Positions 7,018 to 25,510 of a stretch of 64,000 nucleotides of DNA are shown piece by piece. The stretch is from Haemophilus parainfluenzae ATCC 33392 (GTDB lineage: Bacteria > Pseudomonadota > Gammaproteobacteria > Enterobacterales > Pasteurellaceae), in assembly GCF_031191205.1 (NCBI RefSeq), contig NZ_CP133470.1, forward strand, positions 1,867,501 through 1,931,500, in the 5' to 3' direction. Numbering within the stretch: position 1 is the stretch's first letter; every line of letters starts with the position of its first letter. The position numbers were made by a program, and so were the translations under genes. A model generated the notes under the pieces. The model was not told where the DNA came from. It ran no database searches and worked only from the letters and a program-made list of their open reading frames with translations.

Positions 7018-7284
7018 AATTTGAGTAAAAGGTAACCGCACTTTAGCACGGCAGAATGATGAAATAGAGTGCTACGTAAAACTATTTTATAGTATTTGCG
7101 TTAATTAAGAGTGTTTCTATGAAGCATCACTTAATAGTATTAAGAAATTTATTTATCCCATATAAAATTTAATGATTTAAAAGTTATATTTCTTTACAAA
7201 ACATATAAATATGTCTTCATTTTTCATCCCAACTTTTATAGAATGGTAGCTATTTTAATAAGTTTTAGCCTGCGGAGTTTTTTT
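7018..7284. other. divergent intergenic region between molBCA and the srf-like operon
   Basis: This AT-rich gap holds a USS (7035-7043) and the promoter region of the twelve-gene operon to the right. A possible -10 is TATAGAAT (7237-7244), but I find no convincing -35. I see no open frame longer than 17 codons and no clear operator. Confidence 0.5.
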
Positions 7285-8871
7285 ATGTTAAGTGCATTAT
7301 TGAGAAGTGGTGAAATCAAAAACTATACGCCATTAGGCCAAGATGGCATGGCAGTTTATACGGTAGCATCCCAGTTGCGAGATGCACTTAAGTTTAAGCG
7401 AGGTCGTTCCTTTGCTGAATATTTAGCGATTCCACAGCGTAATGAACAGGGGGATAAAATCGATTGGTATGTACCCTTTGATTCCACTCGTGCAGATGGG
7501 CAATATATGATTATCCCTTGGACTTCGGCTACGGAAGAAGAACGTGAAAATGCCCGCTCAGAATTGAAGATTTTTGAGCGCACAGCATTAGAGTTAGGTA
7601 AAGAGCTGATTCAATCTCCCTCCTCAAAAGGTGACCAATTACTATTTGCTCGTTTGCTTTGCGGTGGAAACCCCGACGATATTACTGATCCTGAAAATCT
7701 CAAAGCCTTACGCTTTCCTAATCCAGAACATGTTTATTTAGTCAATGATCGCCCCGTAATTACCTTCTGGGGATTTCTTGAAAAACATGCCGCTGCTCAT
7801 GGTAATCCATTCCTTTCTTTACAAGCTGCAGCCCCAAAACCAATTAAACCCGCTTCACCTACAACACCAGTGATTGAACCTGTAGTTGCGAAAAAACACC
7901 CTTGTCGTGTGTTCTGGTGGGTATTGCCATTATTACTCGGATTACTTTTATTATTGGCTTGGTGGTTTAAAGATTTATGGTGGCCTAAAGAGGAAACAAC
8001 AGTAAAAAATGACCCTGTCACAGTTTCTGAATCTCAAACCCAAACTGTCAAAAAACCGAAAGAAAAAGAATTACGTAAATTGAAAGATGTTCTTTACCGA
8101 TATCTGAATGGACGCTGGGTTGATGGAAAGGGTGTGGCTGTGACAGATCCTTCAGTTTTAAATCAACTAGGCGATGCTCCAGTTGTTGGAGAAGGAAATA
8201 TGCAAGGTGAAGGTCTTAATACACCATTAACAGAAACAGATGCTGCCAAAGCTGATGAATCAAAAAATGATAAAGCAGATGATGCCAAAGCAGAGCAAAA
8301 TAAAGATGAAAATAAACAACAACCGCCAGTAGACCCTCTAGCAGAGGGTAAATCGGATACTAAAGAGGATCAAAATAAAGTAGATGAAAAAACACAGCAA
8401 CCACCAGTAGATCCGTTAGCCGAAAATAAATCAGATACTCAGGCTGGACAAAATAAAGAAGATGATAAAAAGAATCAAACCACTTCTAATGCTAATGCTA
8501 AACCATTACAAATTCCAACAACTAGTACACAAAATGGTAATGTAGATTTTCTAAATGGCCAGTGGAATGCTGGAGCGGGGATTCAGGATAAAACTACTGG
8601 TAAGCCTCTACGCTTAAAATATGCATTCTCAAATGGCGTAGGTCAAGTACAAGTACAACGCGGTGACGGCGTACAATGCACGGGAGATGTTTCTGCAAAA
8701 ATGCAAGGCAGTGGTTTGAATATTACTAATAAAGGTGTAGCAAAATGTAGCGATGGCTCAAGCTATCAGCTGCCTGAAGTAATTTGTAAACCTGGCGCGA
8801 AGAGTATTGCCGATTGTCAAGGTGGATATGGCTCAGGACAGAGCTTCCCAATGACAATGAAATCGAATTAG
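7285..8871 (+). CDS. srfA: SrfA-like membrane protein, first gene of the srf-like operon
   Basis: 528 residues. The N-terminal cytoplasmic domain (1-205) contains WYVPFD and YLVNDRPVITFWGF (near 150-164). One strong transmembrane helix sits near 208-229 (VFWWVLPLLLGLLLLLAWW). Then comes a Lys/Asp/Gln-rich linker with two copies of a PPVDPLAE unit (near 347 and 372). The C-terminal domain (416-528) has four cysteines, suiting disulfides in the periplasm. The N-terminal domain plus helix is shared with the two vWA proteins at 22504 and 24004. ATG 7285 follows a GGAG site; an upstream in-frame codon at 7243 is less likely. The SrfA name rests on position before srfB-srfC and remembered family resemblance. 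The molecular function is unknown. Confidence 0.7.
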   Translation: MLSALLRSGEIKNYTPLGQDGMAVYTVASQLRDALKFKRGRSFAEYLAIPQRNEQGDKIDWYVPFDSTRADGQYMIIPWTSATEEERENARSELKIFERTALELGKELIQSPSSKGDQLLFARLLCGGNPDDITDPENLKALRFPNPEHVYLVNDRPVITFWGFLEKHAAAHGNPFLSLQAAAPKPIKPASPTTPVIEPVVAKKHPCRVFWWVLPLLLGLLLLLAWWFKDLWWPKEETTVKNDPVTVSESQTQTVKKPKEKELRKLKDVLYRYLNGRWVDGKGVAVTDPSVLNQLGDAPVVGEGNMQGEGLNTPLTETDAAKADESKNDKADDAKAEQNKDENKQQPPVDPLAEGKSDTKEDQNKVDEKTQQPPVDPLAENKSDTQAGQNKEDDKKNQTTSNANAKPLQIPTTSTQNGNVDFLNGQWNAGAGIQDKTTGKPLRLKYAFSNGVGQVQVQRGDGVQCTGDVSAKMQGSGLNITNKGVAKCSDGSSYQLPEVICKPGAKSIADCQGGYGSGQSFPMTMKSN

Positions 8872-8907
8872 TGAACCAATAAACAACGAATAGAAGCGAG
8901 AATAAAA

Positions 8908-11900
8908 ATGTTACCGGATTTACATCATTACGGAAAAGAAATCTCACTAATTATGAATAGTGGGGTGCAATTTTTAGACTTCGGTTTAAAAATTGATTGG
9001 AAAGACAAAGAATGGCGTACCAAAAGTATGGGAAACTTCGCCTCTGGCGGTGAAAACCATCCAATTCGTCGATTAGTTGAACATCGTAGCGGTGAAGGTT
9101 ATTGTGATAGCAGTGATTTGAGCCGAATGGTTAAAGTAGAACATGAAATCAGTGTAGAACAGTCATTCAAATTATTAGATGGTGTTTGGTTACCTATTCC
9201 TGTTTTGCGTACAGTAGCTTCTACAGATGGTTTTGATGAAGGCCCTTATAACTGGGCGCGTGCACGAATTGTTAAACTAGCTGAACCAGATGTAGAAGGC
9301 AATACTTATCGAGTTACTTTAGCTTTTGATACTAAAATTTTTCCTAATCGTGCTGATGTTGCTTACCTTGCACCAACTGAAGAAGATGTGCGTTCTGGCG
9401 CGGTTTTTGGTCTCGCTTATCAATCTCATCAAATGTCGTGGTTTTTGGACTACAAATGGATAAATGAATGGTTATTGGAGCTTTTCACTGAACTAGCGCC
9501 AGAAAATGATCGTTTAAAAATTCATCCTGATGATCTGAAAATGGACATTGCTGCTAAATTTCATCAAGGTCATTACTTGAATATTTTGGCTATTCTAGGT
9601 GAAGAAATTGATATTCCACGGATTAAAATGATTTCCAATCGTTCTGATGAAATTAATCGTGCAATTCCAGTTGATATGGTATTGGATGTAGGAAACTCCC
9701 GCACTTGTGGAATTTTAATTGAAGATCACGTGCAGGAAAAAGATGGTTTGAAAAAACGCTATGAATTGGAATTACGTGATTTAACGCGCCCGGAACGAGT
9801 GTACTCCGAACCATTTGAAAGTCGAGTTGAATTTGCCCAAGCGTTTTTTGGCAAAGATCATTTTTCTGTACAAAGTGGGCGTCGTGATGCTTTCCAATGG
9901 GCAACAATTGCGCGTGTAGGGAAGGAAGCCGCTCGTTTAGCAAGTCGTCGAGAGGGAAATGAAGGTTCAACAGGTTTATCTAGTCCAAAACGTTATTTAT
10001 GGGATGATGCTCGTTACGAACAAGGCTGGCGTTTTAACTCATCCTATGTAAAAACAGATTACGAGCCTTATGCAACAGCAGATCCGCTTTCTGGATTAAT
10101 CAATGAGTATGGTGAAGCATTACATATTTTGCGGGATGATATTGATGAAGAATTTGAACGCAAAATGCCTGTATTCCAACCTAAATATTCTCGTCGTTCA
10201 TTGATGACGTTTATGTTATCAGAAGTGTTGATGCAAGCATTAATGCAGATTAACAGCCCTGCTCAACGAGCTAAATTGGAACATTCTAAAGCACCGCGTT
10301 TTTTACGTTCGATTATTTTGACTGTACCACCAGCAATGCCTAAACCTGAACGAGAAATTTTCCGTCAATCTATTTATCAGGCTATCGGCTTAGTTTGGAA
10401 ATCTCTTGGCTGGGATAAATCTGATGATGATTTTGACTTCAATTCACAAAGTGCAAGAGAAAAATATTGGCCGATTTTACCTGAGGTGATTATTCAATGG
10501 GATGAAGCAACCTGTGGGCAAGTTGTTTATCTATTTAATGAAACTCAAAATAACTATGGCGGTCGACCAGAAGAATTTATTGCTGCATTGCAACGTCCAG
10601 ATAAAAAAGAAAAGGATCGTATTACTATCGCAACTATTGATATAGGTGGTGGTACAACAGACTTAGTAATCAACGATTACTCGCTGGATTATGGAGAAAA
10701 CGGTGGTTCAGGTAGTAATGCCTATATTATCCCGACTCAGCGTTTCCGTGATGGTTTCAAAGTGGCCGGTGATGATATTTTGCTAGATATGATTCGTAAT
10801 GTAGTAGTGGAATCTTTAACTGTTGGTTTGAAAAATGCAGGTTTACGTGATCCTGAACCTATTCTTTCTGAATTGATTGGCGATCAGGCATTAAAAGTAC
10901 AAGATGCATTATTACGCCAACAATTGACATTACAAGTATTCAGCCCAATTGGCTTGCGCGTATTGAAAGAGTACGAAGGTTATGATCCAATGCAAAAGAC
11001 CAATGCATTAAATGGGAAGACTTTTGGTGAATTATTAGAAGACGTAGAACAGCCTACAGAAAGTGTGTTGGACTATATTAATGAACCGATTCGCCGTGCC
11101 TTAGGTCGTTCAGATTTTAATATTTTAGATTTACCGGTTCAGGTGAATTTAGAACGTATTCACAGTTTATTTATTCGTGGTGATTATTTTGATATCTGCA
11201 AAACCTTCAACGCTTTGTGTGAGGTCGTCAACAGCTATCAATGTGATGTGTTGTTACTGACTGGCCGACCATCTCGTTTGCCTGGTGTACAATCCTTCTT
11301 CCGTTCTCGTTTACCTTTACCAGTCGGACGGATTTTACCATTACATCATTACCGCACAGGAAACTGGTATCCATTCCACAAACAAGGTCGTATAGATGAT
11401 CCAAAAACGACTGCAGCAGTGGGTGCTATGCTTTGTTTCTTATGTAAAGATATGCGTTTAACCAACTTCTATTTACGTTCAATGGCAATGACAGCTTATT
11501 CCACAGTGAAATACATTGGGTATTTAGATAACAATAACGTAATTAAAGACAGCAACGTTTATTATCACGATATTGATTTAGACAATGAGGATTATGATTT
11601 CCCAGATACTTCCTTTGAAGTACGCGGTGATACCCGTTTAGGTTTCCGCCAATTAAATGTGGAGCGTTGGGTTGCTTCTCCACTTTATATGCTTTCTATA
11701 GAAAGCCGTGAATGGAAAGCGATGTTGAATAATGAAGGTGTGGTATTACAAGTAACATTAGGTATAAAAAATAGCCGTAATAGCCAAGAAAGAGCAGAAA
11801 ATTTCTACATAAAAAATGTGACAGCATCAAATGGCCGTTCTTGCGTACGAGAAAGGGATATTACCCTTCATCTAAACACAATGACCGATGCGGGACTTGG

Positions 11901-11946
11901 TGATCAAAAATTATATTGGTTAGATACTGGCTGTGTGAAACGATAG
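8908..11946 (+). CDS. srfB: SrfB-family actin/Hsp70-like ATPase
   Basis: 1012 residues, full length for the SrfB virulence-protein family (start MLPDLHHYGKEISLIMNSG). Three actin/Hsp70-fold nucleotide motifs are visible in order: phosphate-1 MVLDVGNSRTCGIL (near 255), phosphate-2 IATIDIGGGTTDLV (near 573) and an adenosine-type loop LLLTGRPSRLPG (near 782). No signal peptide or membrane helix is seen, so it is probably cytosolic. SrfB was named in Salmonella as an SsrB-regulated gene; its biochemical role is unsettled. It sits 36 bp after the SrfA-like gene and 12 bp before srfC, so it likely acts with them. The ribosome site (GCGAG) is weak, and the start is fixed by family alignment from memory. 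Confidence 0.9.
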   Translation: MLPDLHHYGKEISLIMNSGVQFLDFGLKIDWKDKEWRTKSMGNFASGGENHPIRRLVEHRSGEGYCDSSDLSRMVKVEHEISVEQSFKLLDGVWLPIPVLRTVASTDGFDEGPYNWARARIVKLAEPDVEGNTYRVTLAFDTKIFPNRADVAYLAPTEEDVRSGAVFGLAYQSHQMSWFLDYKWINEWLLELFTELAPENDRLKIHPDDLKMDIAAKFHQGHYLNILAILGEEIDIPRIKMISNRSDEINRAIPVDMVLDVGNSRTCGILIEDHVQEKDGLKKRYELELRDLTRPERVYSEPFESRVEFAQAFFGKDHFSVQSGRRDAFQWATIARVGKEAARLASRREGNEGSTGLSSPKRYLWDDARYEQGWRFNSSYVKTDYEPYATADPLSGLINEYGEALHILRDDIDEEFERKMPVFQPKYSRRSLMTFMLSEVLMQALMQINSPAQRAKLEHSKAPRFLRSIILTVPPAMPKPEREIFRQSIYQAIGLVWKSLGWDKSDDDFDFNSQSAREKYWPILPEVIIQWDEATCGQVVYLFNETQNNYGGRPEEFIAALQRPDKKEKDRITIATIDIGGGTTDLVINDYSLDYGENGGSGSNAYIIPTQRFRDGFKVAGDDILLDMIRNVVVESLTVGLKNAGLRDPEPILSELIGDQALKVQDALLRQQLTLQVFSPIGLRVLKEYEGYDPMQKTNALNGKTFGELLEDVEQPTESVLDYINEPIRRALGRSDFNILDLPVQVNLERIHSLFIRGDYFDICKTFNALCEVVNSYQCDVLLLTGRPSRLPGVQSFFRSRLPLPVGRILPLHHYRTGNWYPFHKQGRIDDPKTTAAVGAMLCFLCKDMRLTNFYLRSMAMTAYSTVKYIGYLDNNNVIKDSNVYYHDIDLDNEDYDFPDTSFEVRGDTRLGFRQLNVERWVASPLYMLSIESREWKAMLNNEGVVLQVTLGIKNSRNSQERAENFYIKNVTASNGRSCVRERDITLHLNTMTDAGLGDQKLYWLDTGCVKR

Positions 11947-11958
11947 GTGGAAGAGAAA

Positions 11959-14640
11959 ATGACGGATAATCAATTAACAGAATCTTGGGATAAGGTATTC
12001 CAAGCATCACAACAAGCGATTGATTGGGTAAATGATGTTCGCCCAAATGTTGCCCGTTTAAATAATGAGGCTGATGGTTTAATTCTTGAATTAAGACGTT
12101 TACGTAATACAGCAAAACGCCTAGGTGCCGTTTCTTCTAAACCAATTACAGCTGGTTTTTTTGGGTTATCACAGGCAGGTAAATCTTTCTTAATTTCAGC
12201 ACTGGCAGCCGATCAAAAGGGCAACTTGGAAACGATTTTTGACGGTCAACAGTTGGATTTCATTAAACATATCAATCCTCCTGGTGGCGGAAAAGAAGCA
12301 ACGGGTTTGGTTACTCGTTTTACTCGCTCAGCAAAAGCGGCTGTTACAGGCTATCCTTTAGAACTTCGCTTATTTCATGAAATTGAAGTTGCCAAAATTT
12401 TAGTTAATGCTTATTTCAACGATTTTGATAAAGAACGTGTGACTTATCAATTGGAACAATCTCGCATTAATGAAATACTTAAACCTTTAAATGCTAAATT
12501 AAATGCTCAGCCTGTAAAAGGTGTTAATGAAGATGACGTAGTTGATTTGCAGGATTACGCCCAGGAAAGCTTCGGAAAATCTTTATCTGTATTACAGGCT
12601 AATTATTGGGCTAGAGCGATAGCCATGGCACCAAGACTGAGCATTGAAGATAGAGCAACCTTATTCTCCATATTATGGGCAGAAATTCCAGAGTTGACTC
12701 AAATCTATATTCAATTTGCAAAAACACTGGCTAAATTAGGTAATCCTGAACGTGTTTATGCACCGCTTACCGCAGTAGTAAAAGATAATGGTACTGGCGG
12801 TCTTTCTCAAGCTGACAGTATTATGAACGTTGATATGCTTGAGCGTTTAGGTACAAATCGAGATGAACAAATTGCTGTTCGTCCTCTTATTGAAGAAGGC
12901 CATGTTGGTGAGCCTGTTTCCATTTCTTTGGCTGAATTAACCGCACTTACCGCAGAATTAGTTTTCCCGTTGATTAACCCAACTAAAGTGCCGGCTGTTG
13001 AAACGGTTGATTTATTAGATTTCCCAGGGTACCGTGGTCGTTTAGCAATCACTTCTTTAAGTGAAGTAAAAGAAGGTAATCCTGTATCTCAACTCATTTT
13101 AAGGGGCAAAGTAGCTTATCTTTTTGAGCGTTATACCGATAGTCAAGAAATGAACATTTTGATTGTTTGTACTCCATCAACCAAACAATCCGATGTGAAT
13201 AGTGTAGGTCCTGTATTGGAGCGCTGGATTAATAAAACGCAAGGAGATAATCCGACTGATCGTGCTAAACGTAAACCCGGACTTCTTTGGGCGATAACCA
13301 TGTTTGATATGCGTATCAGTAGTGATTTGGCCAAAGATGAAGATATGCTGAAAATGTCTTGGGGACAAGGTGGATTGCTGAAACAAACGATTTTAGAGCG
13401 CTTCGGAAACTATTCTTGGCTAAATGAATGGGCAAATGGCAAGCCGTTTGATAATGTTTTTTTAGTACGTAAACCGGGTTTCAAAGTGGCTTTTTTAGAT
13501 ATGGATAATACTGAAGAATTAGCCATTAATCCAAAAGAGGCTGGGCAGCTTAATCTTTTACGTAGTACTTTTGCTAATGACCCTGATATTCAAAAACATG
13601 TTGCTCAACCTCAAGAAGCCTGGGATGCAATGATGAAATTGAATGATGGTGGGATGCAACGAATTAGTGATTATTTGAAAACGATTGCTTTGCCAGAAGT
13701 GAAAGCTCAACGTTTAACTGAGCAACTTAATGAATCTATCCATCATATTGTAGAAAACCGTTTTTCTTCTTGGTATCAAAGTGAAGGTGCTGAAGAAGTC
13801 AATAAAAAACGTCAATTAGCACAAATGATTGTTGGTGAATTAAGTAAAAAAGGACTTTTGGTCGGTGAGTTTTTACGTTGTCTTCAATTACCTGAAGAGA
13901 CAATTCGTTCTTTATATTTTTCTGATTATGAAGAGGTCTTACTAAACAAAGGTGAAGAAGAAACTAAAGCACAAGAAAATTCAGCAAATACCTTTGATGC
14001 TGGTTTTGGTTTTAGTTCAGAAGGATTTGATTTATTTGCTGAACCGGCTCCTGTTGTTGTAGAAGAGAAACCGGCTGAAAAAATTGTGGAATCTCGTTTT
14101 GCTATGGCTGCATTTAAATCCTGGATTGAACATTTGCGTTCAATTTCTTCTGATCAGCATTTGATGCAATTCTTTGGTTTTACTAAAGAAGCCGTTGAAG
14201 GTTTAGTTGGTGAATTGATTACTGGTGCAAATCGTCTTCATTTACAGGATAAACTTTCTAAGGTCGTTTTCCGTAATGAAAACGCAGGAAGTAAACGTGA
14301 TCAATTAGCTGAGCGTCAAGTATTTTCCATTAATACTGAAATTGCGGATTTTATTGCATGGTTGGATTTTGTTAATCAACCACTGACTCAACGTCCGGCT
14401 AGTCGCGTGATGAATGAGCGAGCAATATTTGAAAATAGGGAAGTTGAAAAGGTAAACGGTTTACCTAAATTAGATGACCAAACTAATAATTACACTAAAA
14501 ATTATCTTTTTGACTGGTTTGTAGCCTTTGGTCACTTTGCTGAAGGAAATGCCGGACACAGCGCTGGACGGGAAATTGATCAGGTCAGCAATACAAGGTT
14601 AGGTTCGGTATTAGATTTATATCGTTCTGCACAATGCTAA
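11959..14640 (+). CDS. srfC: SrfC-family dynamin-like GTPase
   Basis: 893 residues from ATG 11959, preceded by GGAAGAG (a GTG at 11947 is also in frame). Long helical N-terminus, then a P-loop GLSQAGKS (near 69-76), a G3-type DLLDFPGYRGR (near 353) and a G4-like AITMFDMR (near 444), followed by a long helical region and an acidic linker (PAPVVVEEKPAE). This order fits a large TRAFAC/dynamin-type GTPase. The family is annotated only as a putative virulence factor. No membrane segment or signal peptide. It is probably the partner of SrfB, since the genes are 12 bp apart and are known to travel together. Some literature treats SrfABC as a toxin-antitoxin set; I cannot check that here. Confidence 0.88.
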   Translation: MTDNQLTESWDKVFQASQQAIDWVNDVRPNVARLNNEADGLILELRRLRNTAKRLGAVSSKPITAGFFGLSQAGKSFLISALAADQKGNLETIFDGQQLDFIKHINPPGGGKEATGLVTRFTRSAKAAVTGYPLELRLFHEIEVAKILVNAYFNDFDKERVTYQLEQSRINEILKPLNAKLNAQPVKGVNEDDVVDLQDYAQESFGKSLSVLQANYWARAIAMAPRLSIEDRATLFSILWAEIPELTQIYIQFAKTLAKLGNPERVYAPLTAVVKDNGTGGLSQADSIMNVDMLERLGTNRDEQIAVRPLIEEGHVGEPVSISLAELTALTAELVFPLINPTKVPAVETVDLLDFPGYRGRLAITSLSEVKEGNPVSQLILRGKVAYLFERYTDSQEMNILIVCTPSTKQSDVNSVGPVLERWINKTQGDNPTDRAKRKPGLLWAITMFDMRISSDLAKDEDMLKMSWGQGGLLKQTILERFGNYSWLNEWANGKPFDNVFLVRKPGFKVAFLDMDNTEELAINPKEAGQLNLLRSTFANDPDIQKHVAQPQEAWDAMMKLNDGGMQRISDYLKTIALPEVKAQRLTEQLNESIHHIVENRFSSWYQSEGAEEVNKKRQLAQMIVGELSKKGLLVGEFLRCLQLPEETIRSLYFSDYEEVLLNKGEEETKAQENSANTFDAGFGFSSEGFDLFAEPAPVVVEEKPAEKIVESRFAMAAFKSWIEHLRSISSDQHLMQFFGFTKEAVEGLVGELITGANRLHLQDKLSKVVFRNENAGSKRDQLAERQVFSINTEIADFIAWLDFVNQPLTQRPASRVMNERAIFENREVEKVNGLPKLDDQTNNYTKNYLFDWFVAFGHFAEGNAGHSAGREIDQVSNTRLGSVLDLYRSAQC

Positions 14641-14650
14641 GGAATAGAAA

Positions 14651-17643: not shown

Positions 17644-17656
17644 AAAAGGATATAGC

Positions 17657-18376
17657 GTGCTAACCATTAAAGATTTATCCATAACTCGCGGACAAGGGGA
17701 GCAAAGTTTTACGGTTTCCCTACCGCATTTATCTTTGGCTGAAGGTGAGGTCGTTTCACTTTGTGGTTCGAGCGGTTGTGGAAAAAGCACGCTATTGGAA
17801 ATGATGGGGCTAATTTTAAAACCGGATAACTTGAGCCAATATGAATTGAGCTCAGCTACTTTAAGCATGGATTTAGCCCCCCTTATTCTGAGTAATAAGC
17901 AAAAGACTTTGGCTGAGATTCGCTCTAAAAATCTTGGCTTTATGTTACAAAATGGTGGGCTATTACCTTTTTTAAGCGTATGGCAAAATATTCTGCTACC
18001 TTGTCAAACAAATGGAATTTTAGCTGATGAAAGTTGGTTACATCATCTATGCGAAAAACTAAACATCAATCATTTAATGACAAAATATCCAAAGCAGCTT
18101 TCTATAGGTGAACGTCAACGGGTCGCTTTTGTTCGCTCTATTGCCCATAAACCACTTTTATTATTAGCGGATGAGCCAACATCTGCATTAGATCCCCACC
18201 ACTCAGAGATTTTATTTCATTTAATGCTATCCTTAGCAAAACAGCAAAAAATTGCCGTGCTGCTAGTAACTCACGATTGGGATTTAGTGCAACGTAATGA
18301 ACTTCGTACTTTTAGTGCAAAATTGGATATGTCTTTACGTCAGTCTTGTTTTATTGAACAAGCCAATAATGACTAG
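17657..18376 (+). CDS. ABC transporter ATPase, TagT/LolD/MacB type
   Basis: 239 residues read from GTG 17657, which has AAAAGGA six bases before it; an upstream in-frame ATG would lie inside the previous gene. Walker A GSSGCGKST, signature LSIGERQR (the usual second glycine is isoleucine), Walker B LLLADEPTSALD and H-loop LVTHDWD are all present, so it should be active. It is followed 18 bp later by its FtsX-type permease. ATPases of this class power extraction or mechanotransmission in the envelope rather than import. With the SUMF1 protein next door the closest functional analogue is TagT of the type VI threonine-phosphorylation pathway. Confidence 0.88.
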   Translation: MLTIKDLSITRGQGEQSFTVSLPHLSLAEGEVVSLCGSSGCGKSTLLEMMGLILKPDNLSQYELSSATLSMDLAPLILSNKQKTLAEIRSKNLGFMLQNGGLLPFLSVWQNILLPCQTNGILADESWLHHLCEKLNINHLMTKYPKQLSIGERQRVAFVRSIAHKPLLLLADEPTSALDPHHSEILFHLMLSLAKQQKIAVLLVTHDWDLVQRNELRTFSAKLDMSLRQSCFIEQANND

Positions 18377-18394
18377 CAAGAATAGGGTATCTTG

Positions 18395-19603
18395 ATGAAA
18401 AATAGATTTACATTATTGGCAAAATTAGCACTAAACGATATTTTCTATGATCGTAAGGTTTCTTTTTGTATTATTGCTTCATTGGTAGCAGTAATTGCTC
18501 CTTTATTGCTTCTTTTTAGTTTGAAATATGGCATTGTTTCTCAATTACGTCATCAGTTGGTTAATGATCCAACCAATTTAGAAATTAAAATTGTTGGTAA
18601 TTTAAATCTTTCTCAAGACTGGTTTGATTGGCTTAAACAACAGCCGGAAACCCAATTCTCTATTCCATTAACGCGTTCACTTAATACAATTATTGATTTG
18701 AAGAAAGAGGCAAATTTTGTTCGTAATGTGGAGTTAATTCCAACCACTTCAGGCGATCCAATTACTCAACAATCTTTGCAAAATGAGAATTCCATTATTT
18801 TAAGTGCATTAAGTGCAGAAAAACTACAAGCTAAACAAGGTGAAAGTATTACTTTAGTTGCAACTCGAAATGAAAATGGACAAGAAGAAAAGGCATTATT
18901 GCAATTAAAAGTGCAGGCTATTTTAAATGAGCAACAATTTCCTCGTGCTGCAATTTTTGTGCCTATGTCATTATTAATTGGTGTTGAAGACTTTCGCGAT
19001 GGTATGAAAACGGAACTTTTCCCTGCAGCAAGTGGAAAGCCAAATGATAAACTCCGTAAAAATTTTGCTAGAGCGAGAATTTATGCTAGAAGCTTGGATG
19101 ATGTGGCACCTCTAGCACTAAAGCTACGTGAACAATTTCATATTGATACTCGAACGGAATCCAAAGCGATTGAAAATGTAAAAGCGATTGATAGTGTATT
19201 AAATGTTATTTTTATGGTTATTGCTTTTACTTCTGTAGTGGGCTGCGTGCTATCTCTTATTGGCGCATTTCTTGCAAATATTGATCGAAAACGTAAGGAT
19301 ATTGCTGTTTTACGTTTAATAGGTTTTCAACAAAGTGCGGTTGGTATTTATTTAGTTTTTCAAGCAATCGTACTCAGTAGTATTGCTTTCATTTTATCTT
19401 ATGGGCTGTATTTGTTTGGCAGTCAATTATTTAATCAAATACTAGGAACAAGCTTAAGTGGCTCCCATTTTGTTAGCCGTTTGGCTCCAATACATTTATG
19501 CTTGGCTTTTATTTTCTCTTTTCTACTTGCTGGCGTGGTTGCTGCTATAGGGGCAGTTCGCGCAGTAAAAATTCAACCTGCGGAGAGTCTGCGAGATGTT
19601 TAA
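18395..19603 (+). CDS. FtsX-domain ABC permease, TagS/LolC/MacB type
   Basis: 402 residues from ATG 18395 (AGGG site). One transmembrane helix near 30-52 is followed by a large periplasmic domain (55-265). Three helices make up the C-terminal FtsX domain (VIFMVIAFTSVVGCVLSLIG; IAVLRLIGFQQSAVG; LAFIFSFLLAGVVAAIGAV). The four-helix topology is that of mechanotransmitter permeases (MacB, LolC/E, TagS). It pairs with the upstream ATPase, and its last 8 bases overlap the SUMF1 gene start. Substrate is not evident from sequence; lipoprotein handling or signal transmission across the membrane is plausible given the adjacent lipoproteins. Confidence 0.87.
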   Translation: MKNRFTLLAKLALNDIFYDRKVSFCIIASLVAVIAPLLLLFSLKYGIVSQLRHQLVNDPTNLEIKIVGNLNLSQDWFDWLKQQPETQFSIPLTRSLNTIIDLKKEANFVRNVELIPTTSGDPITQQSLQNENSIILSALSAEKLQAKQGESITLVATRNENGQEEKALLQLKVQAILNEQQFPRAAIFVPMSLLIGVEDFRDGMKTELFPAASGKPNDKLRKNFARARIYARSLDDVAPLALKLREQFHIDTRTESKAIENVKAIDSVLNVIFMVIAFTSVVGCVLSLIGAFLANIDRKRKDIAVLRLIGFQQSAVGIYLVFQAIVLSSIAFILSYGLYLFGSQLFNQILGTSLSGSHFVSRLAPIHLCLAFIFSFLLAGVVAAIGAVRAVKIQPAESLRDV

Positions 19604-21173
19604 ATATCGTTTTTCTTTATTAGCATTAATTATGGCCAGTACGGCTGTATTAGCCCAACCTTGGGAAGAAAAATTTTTTAATCCGAAAAAATTAGATGGT
19701 GATATTGTATTACCCATGCCTTGTGAAGGGAGTATGGTTTTTCGAGTAATTAAAACTAACACCAAAAAACCATTAGAAGATATTAAAGTCACTCTCGGTG
19801 GCAATAGCAATGATGAAGATGGTTATGCGCAATATGCTACGCCAAATTATATTTCGGGTAGTTTTGCCAATGAAAAACAAGAACGCTATTTCTTAATGGG
19901 AAAATATGAGGTGACAGAAGCTCAGTTTAATGCCGTAATGAAAGGCGAGCAATGTCCTTCAGTAAATATGAAAACCAGTTTACCCGCAATTAATATGAGT
20001 TGGTTTGATGCGATAGAATTTACCCATAAATATAATGAATGGCTACTTAAAAATGCAGCAGATAAACTTCCAACGGAAGATGGAAGTAAAGGTTTTGTCC
20101 GTTTGCCAACTAATGCTGAATGGGAATTTGCTTCTCGAGGTGGGGTTGCGGTTGATGAAGCTGCATTCCGTGAAAATACCTTTCCTATGCCAGATGGTAT
20201 TGCTCGTTATGCATGGTCATCTAAAAATGCTAATGGTCGTTTGCAAGTTATAGGTTTACTTGAGCCGAATCCACTTGGTTTATTTGATACATTGGGGAAT
20301 GTTTCTGAAATGGTATTTGACGGTTTTCGTGCTAATAAGCTAAGTCGCTATCATGGTCAAGAGGGAGGCATGATTGCCCGAGGTGGAAGCTATATTAAAG
20401 GAGAAAGTGAAGTCAACAATACTTCACGTATTGAGGTTCCTTATTACGATAATAATGGCACGATGAAGAAAAAAGATATGGGATTCCGTGTAGCAATTAC
20501 CGCACCTTTATTAACATCAAATAATCGTATTAATCAATTACGTCAAGAATGGTCTGCTTTAGGCTCAGATAGTAAAGAAAGTAATGATCCAAATATTGTC
20601 GGTAAACTGGAAAAATTAGCGTCGAACGTTGAAGATGAAAAACTTAAACAAGAAATTACTAAGACCAAAGATGAATTGCGAGCAGCAAACCTGGCACGAG
20701 ATGAACAGCGAGATGCCGCAATTCGTTCGGCCTTACAATTAGGTGGATTCCTTTGTGCTAATGTTTCTGATTTACAGGCAGAAGTAGAACAGCAAGAAAC
20801 AGCAGTAAAAGCTTTTGCTGAGGAAATAAAAAATGAACAGGATACCGATTTAAAACAAATTTATCAGCAAAAAGAATCTGATTTTAAACAACGATTACAA
20901 GAAGCTGAAAAGGCTAGAGATTTTGTTGTGCAATATTATGCAGGCACAATTACTAGTACATTTGACACTTATAGCCTTGCTAATGTAAAAGAACAAGTAG
21001 AAAGAACAAAATCCATGATGAATGAGAAAAAACTTGCTAATGGACAAGCGACGAATTTGAGCCAGTACCTTGATTTATATTGGAAACATTTAAGCCAATA
21101 TTATCAGAATGGCAAAATTACCCGAGAACAATGGTTACAGCAATGTAATCAAATTAAACCTCAAACTCACTAA
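19596..21173 (+). CDS. periplasmic SUMF1/FGE-fold protein with coiled-coil tail, TagR-like
   Basis: 525 residues with a signal peptide (cleavage near VLA|QP, 21). A formylglycine-generating-enzyme fold spans about 70-305: MGKYEVTEAQFNAVMKG, RLPTNAEWEFASRGG, LGNVSEM, ARGGSY and MGFRVA. A long charged helical region (320-480) is likely coiled coil. True FGEs carry a catalytic cysteine pair just after the RGGS block; here that stretch reads RGGSYIKGESEVNNTSR with none, so enzyme activity is unlikely. TagR, the SUMF1-fold sensor of type VI regulation, is the best analogue. ATG 19596 overlaps the permease stop by 8 bases. Confidence 0.82.
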   Translation: MFKYRFSLLALIMASTAVLAQPWEEKFFNPKKLDGDIVLPMPCEGSMVFRVIKTNTKKPLEDIKVTLGGNSNDEDGYAQYATPNYISGSFANEKQERYFLMGKYEVTEAQFNAVMKGEQCPSVNMKTSLPAINMSWFDAIEFTHKYNEWLLKNAADKLPTEDGSKGFVRLPTNAEWEFASRGGVAVDEAAFRENTFPMPDGIARYAWSSKNANGRLQVIGLLEPNPLGLFDTLGNVSEMVFDGFRANKLSRYHGQEGGMIARGGSYIKGESEVNNTSRIEVPYYDNNGTMKKKDMGFRVAITAPLLTSNNRINQLRQEWSALGSDSKESNDPNIVGKLEKLASNVEDEKLKQEITKTKDELRAANLARDEQRDAAIRSALQLGGFLCANVSDLQAEVEQQETAVKAFAEEIKNEQDTDLKQIYQQKESDFKQRLQEAEKARDFVVQYYAGTITSTFDTYSLANVKEQVERTKSMMNEKKLANGQATNLSQYLDLYWKHLSQYYQNGKITREQWLQQCNQIKPQTH

Positions 21174-21193
21174 TGATAAATAAGGAAAATCTT

Positions 21194-21898
21194 ATGAAAT
21201 TGAAAAAGACCTTTGGTGTACTAATTTTATCTAGTTCATTAGCCCTTGCAGGCTGTGCTGGTACAGGTAGTAGTTCAAGCAGCTTAGATAGCGGTGATGA
21301 TGCTAAATTTTTTAGCTCATCAGGCTGGGGTTCTTGTGCTTGGGGAGCTGCAGGAGGTGCTGCATTAGGTGCTTTAACAGGATTATTGACTGGTGGTGAT
21401 ACTGAAAGTACAGTAGCGGGTGCCGTAATTGGTGGCGCTGCAGGCTGTGCAGCTGGTATGACTTCAAACTACTATTTAGAAAAGCAACGTAAAACTTATG
21501 CGAAAAAAGAAGATCGCCTAAATGCTTATATTGCTGATGTTCGTCAAAATTCACAGATGGTACAAAAATCTACTGCAAAACTAAATGCTGCAACAGCTAA
21601 AAATAACCAGTTGATCGCAAAAGTGAATAGTCAATTAAAATCAGGAGCAATCCAAAAAGCTGAAGCAAAACAACAGTTAGCCCAAGTTGATGCTGATATT
21701 AAAGCTGCCCAAGAGCGCTTAACTGCAATGAAATCTAATTTAAATATGCTTAGCGAAGCCGCTAGATCTGAACGCTCTTCTGGTAGTGCAAGCAAAAGAT
21801 TAGATCAAGATATTCTTCAATTAAAAAAACAAGTTTCAACTTATGAGCAAGCATTACAAGCTCAAGTAAAACAACGTTCAGCAATTCAAGTTGGCTAA
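21194..21898 (+). CDS. lipoprotein with glycine zipper and coiled coil
   Basis: 234 residues from ATG 21194 with AAGGAAAA just before it; an upstream ATG at 21173 overlaps the previous stop but would bury the signal peptide. The lipobox LALAGC gives a mature N-terminal lipidated cysteine. A Gly/Ala-rich stretch (about 50-95: AAGGAALGALTGLLTGG, GAVIGGAAGCAAG) is a glycine-zipper, which can insert in or lie on membranes. The remainder (100-234) is Gln/Lys/Ala-rich and helical, probably coiled coil. With Ser after the lipid cysteine region rather than Asp, outer-membrane sorting is likely. It may occupy the TagQ place of the module, though I see no clear sequence kinship. Confidence 0.8.
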   Translation: MKLKKTFGVLILSSSLALAGCAGTGSSSSSLDSGDDAKFFSSSGWGSCAWGAAGGAALGALTGLLTGGDTESTVAGAVIGGAAGCAAGMTSNYYLEKQRKTYAKKEDRLNAYIADVRQNSQMVQKSTAKLNAATAKNNQLIAKVNSQLKSGAIQKAEAKQQLAQVDADIKAAQERLTAMKSNLNMLSEAARSERSSGSASKRLDQDILQLKKQVSTYEQALQAQVKQRSAIQVG

Positions 21899-21913
21899 TA
21901 AGGGGAGGGGGAT

Positions 21914-22399
21914 GTGAAAATAATTAAATTATTAACCGCACTTTCAGCCACAGCATTATTAGCATCTTGTTCTGCAACACCAGAAGAATGTAATCCCAAT
22001 GTAGAACAAAGCATTTGGGGAAAAATGGCTTGTGTTAATTCGGGTAGTTATGATGCTCGCGTTCAACGTAAAGAAAGTGAATTATCACAAGAGCAAGCTA
22101 AGAACGCGGAATTATTGGCTAAAAACAAGCATGCCCAAGAAGCTAAAAATAAATCAGCTAAACAACTTAATCAAAAGAAAGCCGCATTAGCTAATTTAAA
22201 TAAAGACTTGCAAAATAATGCAGCTTTACTTAAACAAAAAGCAAAAGGTAATAGTGAAGTATTAGCAAAAATTCAAGAAGTAGAACAACAGATGAGTCAA
22301 GTAAATACTTCTGATGCTTCTGATGAGGCAAAAGCGAAAGAGTTGCAAGCGTTACAGCGTAAATTAACAGCTTATAAAAAAGCACTTGCTATCAAGTAA
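21914..22399 (+). CDS. small coiled-coil lipoprotein
   Basis: 161 residues from GTG 21914, which follows a very strong AGGGGAGGGG site. Signal peptide with lipobox LLASC (cysteine near 19), then a short region with two more cysteines (EECNPN, MACVNSG) and a long Lys/Gln/Ala-rich coiled coil (55-160) much like the tail of the lipoprotein before it. The two probably form a pair or hetero-oligomer at the outer membrane (inference). A USS lies inside its signal-peptide codons. No family is recognised. Confidence 0.72.
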   Translation: MKIIKLLTALSATALLASCSATPEECNPNVEQSIWGKMACVNSGSYDARVQRKESELSQEQAKNAELLAKNKHAQEAKNKSAKQLNQKKAALANLNKDLQNNAALLKQKAKGNSEVLAKIQEVEQQMSQVNTSDASDEAKAKELQALQRKLTAYKKALAIK

Positions 22400-22410
22400 T
22401 CATAAGGATT

Positions 22411-22438
22411 AAGAGCTGATCTTTTCAGGTCAGCTCTT
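22411..22438 (+). terminator. hairpin after the lipoprotein genes, weak terminator or attenuator
   Basis: AAGAGCTGA (22411-22419) pairs with TCAGCTCTT (22430-22438). The following bases are only mildly T-rich, so it may reduce rather than stop transcription into the two vWA genes. Confidence 0.55.
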
Positions 22439-22440
22439 GT

Positions 22441-22477
22441 TATTAGAATAAGAATATCATTCGTTTTTATTCTAATA
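22441..22477. repeat. 11-bp perfect inverted repeat before the vWA pair
   Basis: TATTAGAATAA (22441-22451) and TTATTCTAATA (22467-22477) are exact inverted copies with a 15-nt spacer. The dyad is AT-rich and sits between the lipoprotein hairpin and the first vWA gene, where an operator or internal promoter would be. Confidence 0.7.
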
Positions 22478-22503
22478 ATACAGACTCAAACATAGAGGAC
22501 TTT

Positions 22504-23994
22504 ATGCAACGTTTAGCACGTTTTAAACTAGATGAGATTAATCAAAATGCCATTGTGTTATTTGAACACTATGATGAAATAATCAAAATAATACGATCTC
22601 ATCTTCCACCAAGTACAGCAACTTTATTTGCTAAACCAGAAATAAAATCAGATCAAGTTACTGTGGAATGGTATAGCGAATTAGAGGGTCAGCCTTATCT
22701 TGTATCCAGTAATGAATCTGGAAATACGATATTACAGAAAATAGCACCACTTATTCAGCAGCGTTTAAATGCAATTAATAGTCTTACGCAAAGTCTTACA
22801 CAGAAAGGCTTAATTACGCCTGAACAAAACGCTTGGTTAACACAATTAGTTGAAGGTGCTAGTCATGATACCAAACAAATTTATTTAGTAAATAATGAAC
22901 CGGTTATTACTGGTTGGGGTATCGGAAAAAAAGTAGAACCACCGGCTCCGCCACCGATTGTCCCTGTGGCAACACCTAAACACCGTTGGTGCTATTGGTT
23001 ATTACCGCTTCTTTTATTGCTACTCGGTTTATTGGCTTGGTGGTGGTTTAATCGTGAGCCTGTTGTTCCCCCTAAAGTGGAACCGCCTAAGGTAGAAGAA
23101 CCGAAAAAAGAAGAACCAAAAATTGAGGAGCCTAAACCAGAACCTCCAAAAGAAGAGCCAAAGGTTGAAGAGCCTAAACCGGAGCCTCTAAAGGAGGAAC
23201 CAAAGATTGAGGAGCCTAAACCAGAGCCTGTTCAAGAGCCTATTAAGGAAGAGCCGAAAGTAGAACCTCCTGTTGTTGAGCCACCGAAGGAAGAGCCTAA
23301 ACAACCACCACAAAAAGTGTGTAAGCCGAAATACAAACCAGGTGAAACACCACAGATGGTAATGATTTTTGATAATTCTGCATCAATGCTTTATAGTTTG
23401 TTAGAGAACTCACAAACTATAAGTAATTTTGAACAGCGTTGGGATGCGTATGGTGTAAGTAATGAGGAGCTTGAGTATATGCGTCGTTTACCAAATCGCT
23501 TAGCCACTGCCAAAAAAGCCTCTTCCAATATTATTAATAGCATTGGCAAAAATGTAGATATCGGCTTAGTCTCATTAAAAACTTGTCCGGCTGCAACTAA
23601 CCATGGTTTCTATTCACCAGGTAAACGTAATGCACTTAAAGCCAAAATTCAAGCAATGAAACCAGGAGAAGAGAATAGCGGAACTCCTCTATATAATGGA
23701 TTACAAATTGCAAGCAGCATGATTGATGGTGTAAAACGCGATGCCTTTATTTTGCTTCTAAGTGATGGCAAAGATAGCTGTACTACAGCAGATATTTGTG
23801 GCCTAGCCAATCAAATAGCCAAAGAAAAACCGCGTTTAAAAGTGAATGTGGTTGATATTGGTGGGGCTAGAGCTGCCAACTGTGTAGCCAGCGCTACTGG
23901 CGGAAAAGTATTTACCGCAAATAATCAGAAACAAGTTGTGAGTATGGTGAATCAAGCTATTAAACCTATGACTAAAACTGATGAGTGTGAATAA
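22504..23994 (+). CDS. membrane-anchored vWA protein with TonB-like stalk (copy 1)
   Basis: 496 residues. A cytoplasmic domain (1-158; WYSELEGQ, YLVNNEPVITGWG near 125-139) and a helix near 161-182 (WLLPLLLLLLGLLAWWW) resemble the SrfA-like protein. A Pro/Glu/Lys stalk follows (about 190-275, repeats of KPEPPKEEPKVEE) that could span the periplasm as TonB does. The vWA domain (285-496) has an intact MIDAS: DNSAS, GTP and LLSDGKD. Cysteines in CKPKYK, KTCP, DSCTTADIC and ANCV suggest disulfides outside. Its tandem copy starts 9 bp after its stop. It is likely a metal-dependent adhesive or scaffold arm of the same system. Confidence 0.8.
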   Translation: MQRLARFKLDEINQNAIVLFEHYDEIIKIIRSHLPPSTATLFAKPEIKSDQVTVEWYSELEGQPYLVSSNESGNTILQKIAPLIQQRLNAINSLTQSLTQKGLITPEQNAWLTQLVEGASHDTKQIYLVNNEPVITGWGIGKKVEPPAPPPIVPVATPKHRWCYWLLPLLLLLLGLLAWWWFNREPVVPPKVEPPKVEEPKKEEPKIEEPKPEPPKEEPKVEEPKPEPLKEEPKIEEPKPEPVQEPIKEEPKVEPPVVEPPKEEPKQPPQKVCKPKYKPGETPQMVMIFDNSASMLYSLLENSQTISNFEQRWDAYGVSNEELEYMRRLPNRLATAKKASSNIINSIGKNVDIGLVSLKTCPAATNHGFYSPGKRNALKAKIQAMKPGEENSGTPLYNGLQIASSMIDGVKRDAFILLLSDGKDSCTTADICGLANQIAKEKPRLKVNVVDIGGARAANCVASATGGKVFTANNQKQVVSMVNQAIKPMTKTDECE

Positions 23995-24003
23995 GGAACG
24001 CTT

Positions 24004-25452
24004 ATGCAACGTCTAGCTCGTTTTAAATTGCAAGAAATTAATCAAAATGTGACCGCACTTTTTGTCCATTATGATGAAATAATTAAAATCTTGCGTAGCC
24101 ATTTGCCACCAAGTACCGCCACTTTATTTGCAAAACCAGAAATAAAAGCCGATCAGGTTACAGTGGAATGGTATAGCGAGCTAGAAGGCCAGCCAGTCTT
24201 GATTACTCAAGAAATGCAAGAAGATAAGCGATTTAAACCAACAATTTCACTGATTCAACAGCGCCTAAATGCGATTATGACATTGAATCAGGAGCTTATG
24301 ACTAAAGGTGTACTGACACCCGAACAAAGTGCTTGGTTAGCTCAATTGGTGGAAGGGGCGACTCATGATACCCGTCAAATTTATTTAGTAAATAATGAAC
24401 CAGTTATTACTGGTTGGGGTATTGGAAAAAAAGTAGAACCACCGGCTCCGCCACCAGTTGTTCCCCTTACTGCACCAAAACACCGTTGGTGCTATTGGCT
24501 TTTACCGCTTCTTTTATTACTACTAGGCTTATTGGCTTGGTGGTGGCTCAATCGCGAACCGGTTGTACCGCCTAAAGTAGAACCACCTAAGGTCGAAGAA
24601 CCGAAGAAAGAAGAGCCTAAACCAGAGCCACCGAAAGAGGAGCCTAAAGTAGAAGAACCAAAACCGGAGCCGGTTCAAGAACCACCAAAAGAAGAACCGA
24701 AAGTAGAGGAGCCCAAACCAGAACCGAAGAAAAACTGCCGAGTAGTGGAAAAACCAACTGATGCACCGCAACTGGCTATTATTTTTAATAATGCTTCAGG
24801 GATGCGCTATACCTTATTAGAAAGCGCCAAAAAAGTAGCGATTTTTGACGAAAAATTAAGAAATCCAGCAAAATATGGCATCACGCAACAAGATGTCTAT
24901 TATATGTACCGTAAACCAAATCGGTCCGTAGCTTCTAAAAAATCGGTAGCGGAATTAATTAATAATATTCCAACAGCAGTGGATATTGGTTTAGTCGAAC
25001 TAAAAAGTTGTTTATCTACCTCGAAAAAAGCATCTTATGCTACCAATCATGGCATATTTACTGCGGCACAACGCAGTACATTAAAAACTAAACTTAATAA
25101 AATGCAGGTGCGGGAAAATCAGGTTCCAGGCACACCAATTTATGAAGGGTTACAAAAAGCCTTAACTATTATTGATGGTAAAGAACGTGAAGCGTTAATT
25201 GTGTTAATTACCGAAGGTAATGGTGATTGCACTAATAGAAACGTCTGTGAGCTCATTAAAAAAGAAGCGAAAGAAAGACCAAAATTAAAAATTAATATCG
25301 TTAATATTAATTCGCCTTGGCATAATACGGATTGCCTAGCTAAGACAACTGGTGGTGAAATTCTAAACGGTGATATGACGAATCAAGTTAAATTAACTGA
25401 AGCCATTAAGAAATCAATGGAACCAGTACAGCAAGAAATCTGTGATGAATAA
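24004..25452 (+). CDS. membrane-anchored vWA protein with degenerate MIDAS (copy 2)
   Basis: 482 residues with the same plan as the preceding paralogue: cytoplasmic domain, helix near 161-182, shorter Pro/Glu/Lys stalk (190-240) and vWA domain (from about 255). The metal site is altered: DxSxS becomes NNASG, and the LLSDG of the paralogue becomes LITEG, although the GTP loop (PGTPIYEG) remains. Metal-dependent binding is therefore probably lost or changed, and it may be a structural partner of copy 1. Cysteines CRVV, SCLST, GDCTNRNVC and TDCL are placed similarly. It is the last gene of the operon, followed by a strong terminator. Confidence 0.8.
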   Translation: MQRLARFKLQEINQNVTALFVHYDEIIKILRSHLPPSTATLFAKPEIKADQVTVEWYSELEGQPVLITQEMQEDKRFKPTISLIQQRLNAIMTLNQELMTKGVLTPEQSAWLAQLVEGATHDTRQIYLVNNEPVITGWGIGKKVEPPAPPPVVPLTAPKHRWCYWLLPLLLLLLGLLAWWWLNREPVVPPKVEPPKVEEPKKEEPKPEPPKEEPKVEEPKPEPVQEPPKEEPKVEEPKPEPKKNCRVVEKPTDAPQLAIIFNNASGMRYTLLESAKKVAIFDEKLRNPAKYGITQQDVYYMYRKPNRSVASKKSVAELINNIPTAVDIGLVELKSCLSTSKKASYATNHGIFTAAQRSTLKTKLNKMQVRENQVPGTPIYEGLQKALTIIDGKEREALIVLITEGNGDCTNRNVCELIKKEAKERPKLKINIVNINSPWHNTDCLAKTTGGEILNGDMTNQVKLTEAIKKSMEPVQQEICDE

Positions 25453-25453
25453 T

Positions 25454-25480
25454 GGAAAGGGCGTTTAACGCCCTTTTTTT
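25454..25480 (+). terminator. terminator of the srf-like operon
   Basis: AAAGGGCGTT (25456-25465) and AACGCCCTTT (25467-25476) form a strong hairpin ending in a T-run. Confidence 0.88.
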
Positions 25481-25510
25481 CAATATAAGAATTCTTTTAA
25501 ATTTTTTCTA

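Follow-up and report, generated by a model that had tools for sequence, protein, structure and literature searches.

A twelve-gene operon joins SrfABC to an envelope module in Haemophilus parainfluenzae, and the three-gene srfABC of enterobacteria appears to be its remnant

In a 64,000-nucleotide stretch of Haemophilus parainfluenzae ATCC 33392 (contig NZ_CP133470.1, positions 1,867,501 to 1,931,500; hereafter the window), the genes for SrfA, SrfB and SrfC head an operon of 12 open reading frames (ORFs) on one strand, which by ORF reading runs from 7243 (or an ATG at 7285) to 25452. We letter the genes A (SrfA), B (SrfB), C (SrfC) and D to L (genes 4 to 12); the later genes, the envelope half, include those for a secreted von Willebrand A (vWA) protein, an ABC ATPase with its permease, a SUMF1-fold protein and two lipoproteins. 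Presence or absence of the whole block and recurrence of the gene order show that the twelve genes form one unit. In our SrfB tree, the enterobacterial three-gene srfABC forms one clade nested among full operons, a new result limited by a quick method and long branches. We conclude that the three-gene form appears to be a derived remnant whose envelope half has been lost and whose SrfC GTPase is degenerate in most sampled members.

SrfB is carried by 3 of 11 genomes of the genus. Two congeners (G441 and G448) are without the 18.5-kb block at the same site: alignments stop at 7043 and 7045 and resume at 25509, and the flanking genes, named ttcA-dsrC and fecCD here with the help of Pfam matches, adjoin each other there. 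What is missing is the operon and little else, with about 20 bases common to both ends. The other six SrfB-free congeners were uninformative, none of them having, at E <=1e-30, a fecCD match of more than 48% identity. The empty sites have one hairpin, and the window has copies just outside both edges (7035 and 25519), which we take to be uptake sequences (USS). USS density is lower in the block, with 4 copies in 18.5 kb, against 32 in the 45.5 kb outside. The edge hairpins and the few internal copies suggest that the block was gained or lost through natural transformation.

Across overlapping samples, SrfB scored over its cut-off in 7/369 genomes of the class, 17/140 of the family and 84/394 of the order, giving 100 distinct genomes; leaving aside that of the window, 75 of the other 99 supplied regions. 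We annotated neighborhoods with profiles built from the window proteins, covering 76 regions from 75 genomes and 35 named loci. The named loci (L125-L159) partly repeat genomes of L049-L124 and, except for L158, were kept out of the SrfB tree and of the motif and co-occurrence counts. The same order through gene J was found in all 16 other Pasteurellaceae regions, one of which starts inside SrfB at a contig end and one of which has SrfB and gene I split, and in all nine regions of a family comprising Gilliamella and its kin (f207). Taylorella and several enterobacterial genomes show it too. In family f184, probably Succinivibrionaceae, most regions that are long enough agree, with the vWA genes preceding the lipoproteins; L111 and L112 differ. 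The core order B-C-D-E-F-G-H is kept from alphaproteobacteria, where Cereibacter has it, to gammaproteobacteria, and also in Orbaceae, Taylorella and Klebsiella plasmids. Bee symbionts are among the carriers, as are alphaproteobacteria from soil. In a set of 72,556 plasmid records, SrfB occurs in 142, the permease in 125 and the vWA protein in 125, with 114 Klebsiella records in each case. Read gene by gene, a Klebsiella IncFIB plasmid (L216, NZ_MN543582.1) and pENTE01 have A to H in order, the former with a glycine-zipper gene upstream of SrfA; its operon sits between IS1 and IS66-type transposase genes. An initial annotation of this DNA, made from the letters alone, had listed the twelve same-strand genes in this order and proposed that srfABC and the ABC-SUMF1-vWA genes belong together. 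The ORFs, the family profiles and the order seen elsewhere confirm the list, and the two sets do co-occur across Pasteurellaceae, Orbaceae, Taylorella and Alphaproteobacteria.

The SrfB tree was built by a quick search from 81 proteins of at least 850 amino acids and has long branches; it was rooted on two alphaproteobacterial rows that no single branch sets apart from the rest. Two loci with the full neighborhood fell short of the length limit and are not in it: L069, where a stop interrupts SrfB, and L070, which is truncated at the beginning of its contig. Genes E and G accompany SrfB in the regions of 45 of the 81 rows. The other 36 are without them, six of these being on short contigs and given no state. 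Among the 30 scorable rows without E and G, 26 are enterobacterial three-gene operons, including that of Rahnella pRAHAQ01, and form one clade (SH-aLRT 100) whose nearest neighbors are full operons. The remaining four are L052, L053, L111 and L112, and the fewest changes on the tree number three. The whole genomes of L052 and L053, which have SrfB without SrfC, gave no profile match to E or G. In L052, SrfB adjoins genes for an AMP-binding enzyme and a coiled-coil-type protein. In L112 (8291-16278), what follows SrfB-SrfC is not the usual half but a run of unassigned proteins and, five genes on, an OmpA-domain protein (31.6 bits).

SrfC changes with the operon. We scored its GTPase motifs as G1 (GxxxxGK[ST]) and G3 (DxxG); the window protein has both (GLSQAGKS and DFPG), as do 45 of 45 full-operon SrfC proteins. 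In the three-gene clade, both motifs are intact in 4 of 26 (L071, L072, L076 and Rahnella L244), both are lost in 19 and one is lost in 3. Eight of the ten other SrfC rows (L069 and L070 among them) have both motifs; L051 and L123 end before G3. For the 719-residue, Citrobacter/Salmonella-type SrfC of L078, 118 of the 120 best of 297 relatives fail both patterns, and the other two have a gap at G1, one being marked partial; this set surrounds a single short protein and does not sample the SrfC family as a whole. They include proteins labeled Salmonella bongori and S. enterica subsp. diarizonae, arizonae and salamae. In alignment, the short forms lack some 80 residues in the stretch from about position 460 to 545 of the window protein. 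SrfB was aligned in 21 rows, four of them three-gene, and the key residues of its motifs DVGNSRTC, DIGGGTTD and GRPS are invariant in all 21. Since SrfC motifs were lost and SrfB residues kept, the GTPase, not the ATPase, was relaxed together with the disappearance of the envelope half. From the four intact rows it would seem either that this half went first or that the motifs can survive its absence.

We modeled SrfC with AlphaFold2 (16 rows, mean pLDDT 83.7, pTM 0.81). In a Foldseek search, ranks 1 to 32 were all chains that we take to belong to the dynamin superfamily, 8 of them at E <=0.001; they include SynDLP (E 3.8e-8), mitofusin-1 (2.7e-4), MxB, a bacterial dynamin pair, Fzo1, OPA1, Drp1, EHD4 and Mgm1. 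SrfC is thus modeled as a dynamin-like GTPase with a GTPase domain and a helical stalk, predicted to hydrolyze GTP and bind membranes, which is new here. For SrfB, the three motifs correspond to the phosphate-1, phosphate-2 and adenosine motifs of actin/Hsp70 ATPases, and the protein is predicted to have that fold; no sequence match to it was found in the PDB. Both assignments agree with those first proposed for the two proteins.

Coordinates of the block and its genes are collected below.

Table 1. Features of the SrfABC-envelope block, in window positions
Feature	Position	Strand	Evidence and description
Whole block, present or absent as a unit	7044..25508	+	Congener alignments
Gene 1, SrfA	7285..8871	+	NF040486 (SrfA_fam), 346.7 bits; ATG at 7285, ORF opens at 7243; alignment; transmembrane scan
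Gene 2, SrfB	8908..11946	+	PF07520, 1393.8 bits
Gene 3, SrfC	11947..14640	+	PF10139 ('Virul_Fac'), 1150.9 bits; dynamin-like GTPase predicted by motifs and model
Gene 4 (D)	14651..15640	+	N-domain of ~190 residues, one transmembrane segment, Sel1-like tail
Gene 5 (E), secreted vWA protein	15640..17643	+	PF00092, 28.7 bits; signal peptide read from sequence
Gene 6 (F), ABC ATPase	17657..18376	+	PF00005, 84.9 bits; start uncertain, GTG at 17657 likely
Gene 7 (G), FtsX/LolC-type permease	18392..19603	+	PF02687, 44.4 bits
Gene 8 (H)	19596..21173	+	PF03781 (FGE-sulfatase), 124 bits; signal peptide read from sequence
Gene 9 (I), glycine-zipper lipoprotein	21173..21898	+	Lipobox read from sequence; all models below cut-off
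Gene 10 (J), coiled-coil lipoprotein	21914..22399	+	Lipobox read from sequence
Gene 11 (K)	22504..23994	+	SrfA-type N-domain, transmembrane segment, Pro-rich linker, vWA (VWA_2) with intact metal site
Gene 12 (L)	24004..25452	+	Paralogue of gene 11, 60% identical; broken vWA metal site
Terminator-like hairpin and T-run 3' of the last gene	25456..25480	+	Read by eye; missing from the scan's list

The gaps between genes, in operon order, are 36, 0, 10, -1, E-F uncertain, 15, -8, -1, 15, 104 and 9 bp, that between E and F being about +13 bp if the ABC gene begins at its GTG. SrfA consists of an N-domain, one transmembrane segment, a Pro-rich linker and a Cys-containing tail by transmembrane scan and alignment; the tail of D scores 18.7 bits as Sel1-like, below the 30.7 cut-off. 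We infer that the N-domains of both proteins are cytoplasmic. In E, the aligned vWA metal-site motif is DSTIS. Among NCBIfam models the ATPase fits LolD best, at 130.4 bits against a cut-off of 307.75, and the permease profile finds LolC as its top solved structure (E 2.7e-13), its best matches also including LolE, LolF and YtrF. By protein identity the host is near Haemophilus pittmaniae, H being 95% identical to a protein so labeled in the database. H also matches PorK and GldK, which are type IX secretion lipoproteins with a SUMF1 fold. All 12 aligned H sequences are without the Cys shortly past an RGGS motif that we take as the mark of formylglycine-generating catalysis, and a profile search of the H. 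parainfluenzae genome found H as the single FGE-sulfatase match. I reaches 23.2 bits against the 17-kDa-antigen model (cut-off 24.2), and J was found together with nine other operon families in 35 of 85 regions, the window included.

Genes 11 and 12 had been described as membrane vWA proteins. This holds for gene 11, whose metal site is intact (DNSAS, LSDG). Gene 12 has a broken site (NNASG, ITEG) and no VWA model match in the profile scan. What had been overlooked is that both are SrfA fusions: their N-termini match the SrfA family at 41.6 and 45.7 bits, under its 150-bit cut-off, so that the operon has three SrfA-type proteins. A pairing or triplet of intact and broken vWA proteins recurs in 8 of 38 groups, with the window genes listed apart and some loci repeating a genome.

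The envelope half also has relatives on its own. The E and G profiles each match 30 of the 369 class genomes, 26 strongly, and these are the same 26; the four weak E matches and the four weak G matches fall in different genomes. Four of the 26 also have SrfB (G000, G013, G136 and G162), and three SrfB genomes (G060, G068 and G199) have neither E nor G. Strong E and G matches without SrfB occur in 22 genomes, and 19 of these, all but G174, G303 and G366, were examined (20 regions, L188-L207). Every one of the 20 regions has E, F and G; a D-like gene occurs in 15 and a full SUMF1 gene in two (L204 and L207); profile searches detected SrfA, SrfB or SrfC in none of the 20, nor either lipoprotein, I or J. 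We met no name for this module of a membrane protein, a secreted vWA protein, an ABC ATPase and a LolC-like permease. In all 15 stand-alone D proteins only the transmembrane segment and Sel1-like tail match and the first 150 profile positions do not; hence the D N-domain goes with SrfB and SrfC. A set of 77 E proteins includes L125-L159, which partly repeat other genomes. In a tree of E, the 28 Srf-linked rows from outside the alphaproteobacteria group together (support 99), as do 18 stand-alone rows (100), and L204, L207, L241, L243 and two alphaproteobacterial rows fall apart from both.

Two loci of this kind have unusual neighbors. In L204 (1419-5980), the genes after E-F-G-H encode a MotA/ExbB-like protein, a possible motor partner whose match of 17.8 bits is under the cut-off, and a coiled-coil protein. 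On an Azospirillum plasmid (L243, 4940-17485), E-F-G-H-I-J occurs with a weak peptidoglycan-binding match and a divergent PP2C phosphatase gene; 49 kb of this plasmid gave no match to queries for the type VI secretion system (T6SS).

What might the twelve genes do? The reading we prefer, with confidence somewhat short of even, is that they encode a self-contained trans-envelope machine for sensing or for transmitting force, and that SrfB and SrfC exert its action on the inner membrane. We infer its topology, signal, force transmission and membrane output as follows. Outer-membrane lipoproteins I and J, with periplasmic H (a catalytically dead SUMF1 protein) and E, would read the state of the envelope, and the LolC-type pair F and G would carry conformational work across the inner membrane. 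The single-span proteins A, D, K and L would couple the envelope half to SrfB and SrfC; their N-terminal domains were not found in the stand-alone modules. SrfB and dynamin-like SrfC would then remodel, tether or stabilize the inner membrane at that site. Outer-membrane damage is reported to be sensed by the comparably built TagQRST-PpkA path (PMC11881912), and the SrfB-like PM1819 of Pasteurella multocida was reported in outer-membrane sub-fractions (PMC2816674). A bolder proposal, possible but rather doubtful, is that these operons define a new class of trans-envelope machine. A LolC-like ABC transporter would relay signal or force, received from outer-membrane lipoproteins, to SrfC as a dynamin-like GTPase and SrfB as an actin-fold ATPase at the inner membrane. 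The halves would be exchangeable modules, given the neighbors of E-F-G-H in L204 and of SrfB-SrfC in L112, and the textbook SrfABC would be a remnant with a degenerate GTPase.

Several observations weigh against the preferred reading. Stand-alone D-E-F-G modules exist without SrfB and SrfC, so the output may not depend on these proteins. The SrfB fold call is based on motifs, not on a structural model. Among the 50 SrfC matches listed, TM-scores by target length are at most 0.44, which leaves the family call to depend on E-values and on the agreement of the top ranks; the low scores are probably due to a differing domain arrangement. Four three-gene rows retain both GTPase motifs. A Salmonella srfC mutant is a poor swarmer and a normal swimmer (PMC4219756), so some function may survive in the reduced form; PMC3792023 cites a mutant whose motility is normal. 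No knock-out phenotype for a full operon was found in the open-licence literature searched. As for transcription, a scan found 34 terminator-like sites against 14.1 in shuffles, some on the + strand within the operon (e.g., 17551-17575). The 104-bp gap may hold a separate promoter, and the operon may have internal promoters or attenuation. Promoter-like sites were not in excess (52 against 55.8).

Perhaps F and G instead extract lipoproteins? Here they would act on I and J in the manner of LolCDE for surface display, helped by the SUMF1 and vWA proteins, with SrfB and SrfC organizing the site. The Lol-like kinship of both permease and ATPase, the two lipoproteins of the operon and the PorK/GldK match of H are all as expected. 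However, the LolC match spans only the C-terminal third of the permease, and the 20 stand-alone loci have no detected I or J for such a system to handle. We regard extraction and display as unlikely, if the strongest of the alternatives.

A phage-defense system combining a dynamin with an envelope sensor would suit the patchy presence in the genus and the carriage on plasmids, and bacterial dynamins occur in other defense systems. PADLOC, run on ten of the twelve proteins with no systematic look at linked defense genes, gave no system-specific match; the ABC ATPase drew 24 generic hits, mad3 scoring best at 75.1 bits, and there were two weak hits for the permease. We consider this explanation quite improbable. 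Still less do we favor the view that SrfABC is a secreted tripartite toxin served by the other genes for export and regulation. Xenorhabdus SrfABC expressed in Escherichia coli was reported to be cytotoxic (PMC6950479), but SrfB and SrfC bear cytoplasmic ATPase and dynamin signatures with no obvious N-terminal signal, SrfA has a single predicted transmembrane segment, and bee symbionts and soil alphaproteobacteria are among the carriers.

There remains the Tag pathway of type VI secretion, from which the initial annotation had taken its model: the sensing path kept, the kinase replaced, and no T6SS. The operon order vWA-F-G-H-I equals the linear order of PA0075 to PA0070 in Pseudomonas aeruginosa, given the direction in which we assume those ppkA/pppA-tagTSRQ genes to be transcribed. 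By locus-tag order these are ppkA/pppA, tagT, tagS, tagR and tagQ (PMC6657622). The order of parts agrees with that model; profile scans found no kinase domain in the twelve proteins. A kept Tag path is not supported as a line of descent: the permease is nearest LolC among solved structures, and 20 T6SS loci bearing TagF had no ABC/FtsX pair like that of the operon. A search of 284 genomes listed 39 such places, and none of the 20 examined had a permease match at E <=0.01; ABC-profile matches were only traces (two at 3e-3 and 4e-3), SUMF1 was clear in L228 (E 1e-13) and weak in L225, L228, L234 and L237, and a kinase pattern occurred in three. No Tag name appeared among the best 120 of 680 relatives of H or the best 120 of 1040 of G. 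Descent of the operon from the Tag pathway is unproven; outside Srf operons, the nearest relatives of the envelope half that we found are the stand-alone D-E-F-G modules.

The absence of type VI secretion holds at the locus, where no T6SS family was found in the operon or the eight flanking genes scanned. It fails genome-wide, as the genome has a TssC gene elsewhere (C1:240662-241561). The 32 kb around it (L238 and L239) match none of ten operon profiles, nor the kinase pattern. TssC is present in 16 of 37 carriers (3 of 17 Pasteurellaceae), this genome included, and absent from 21 (14 of 17 Pasteurellaceae); the 37 were our own choice, all with E and G, and we claim no association with TssC. 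Four T6SS query ORFs had no match in the 20 stand-alone loci or in L240, L242, L243 and L245, a modest negative. Hence, despite the tag-like parts and order, the TssC gene in the same genome and the tagQRST and ppkA labels given to such genes in PMC3608642, a regulator of the TagQRST-PpkA type working on a T6SS in trans is the least credible explanation, with most carriers scanned having no TssC match, no kinase in the operon and no operon family near the genome's own TssC.

Labels such as virulence factor, effector and toxin have been attached to SrfABC mostly on the strength of Salmonella and Xenorhabdus data. T6SS-control genes lie near srfABC in Xenorhabdus stockiae (PMC6950479). In P. multocida, srfB, srfC and PM1821 are up in a fis mutant (PMC2816674), which is repeated with the PM1819 finding in PMC12057170; elsewhere, srfABC is up without CpxR (PMC6829429) and srfABC-like genes are up anaerobically (PMC3792023). 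Open-licence literature searches for SrfC with GTPase or dynamin gave no paper on SrfC by title, and for an SrfB-von Willebrand operon none. What is new here is the nested three-gene clade, the loss of SrfC motifs and the modeled dynamin fold. The lost motifs may help explain why the function of the three-gene Salmonella version has stayed unclear. If that form is reduced and its GTPase degenerate, the full operon is the one to study, in bee-gut Gilliamella, in Pasteurellaceae or on Klebsiella plasmids, and we predict that GTP is hydrolyzed by full-operon SrfC and not by Salmonella-type SrfC.

The combination of srfABC with tag-labeled genes is already published. In 2013, host-associated Deltaproteobacteria were reported to have SrfABC beside genes labeled TagQ, R, S, T and PpkA, with T6SS machinery stated for only one of the genomes (PMC3608642). 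That neighborhood is like ours in this juxtaposition and differs in also having Hap-like and LigA-labeled genes; the likeness is one of labels, and the passages of PMC3608642 consulted contain no order-of-loss or motif analysis. Salmonella and Citrobacter srfABC share the SrfA, SrfB and SrfC families in consecutive genes, but have three genes only (in the literature and in 26 regions here) and an SrfC of ~714-725 residues, against ~890 in full operons, with G1 and G3 lost. The H1-T6SS TagQRST-PpkA system of P. aeruginosa is alike, at the level of folds, in its lipoprotein, SUMF1-fold periplasmic protein, ABC pair, vWA domain (which we take to be part of PpkA) and linear order, whereas the operon here has no kinase and no linked T6SS. 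LolCDE, MacB and FtsEX share the ATPase and permease families; the F-G pair differs in being accompanied by the secreted vWA protein E, in the same 26 genomes with strong hits. H shares the fold of formylglycine-generating enzymes without their catalytic Cys. Finally, bacterial dynamin-like proteins such as SynDLP and the bacterial dynamin pair resemble SrfC in its modeled fold and GTPase motifs, but SrfC is only ~9-13% identical to them and has a partner ATPase, SrfB.

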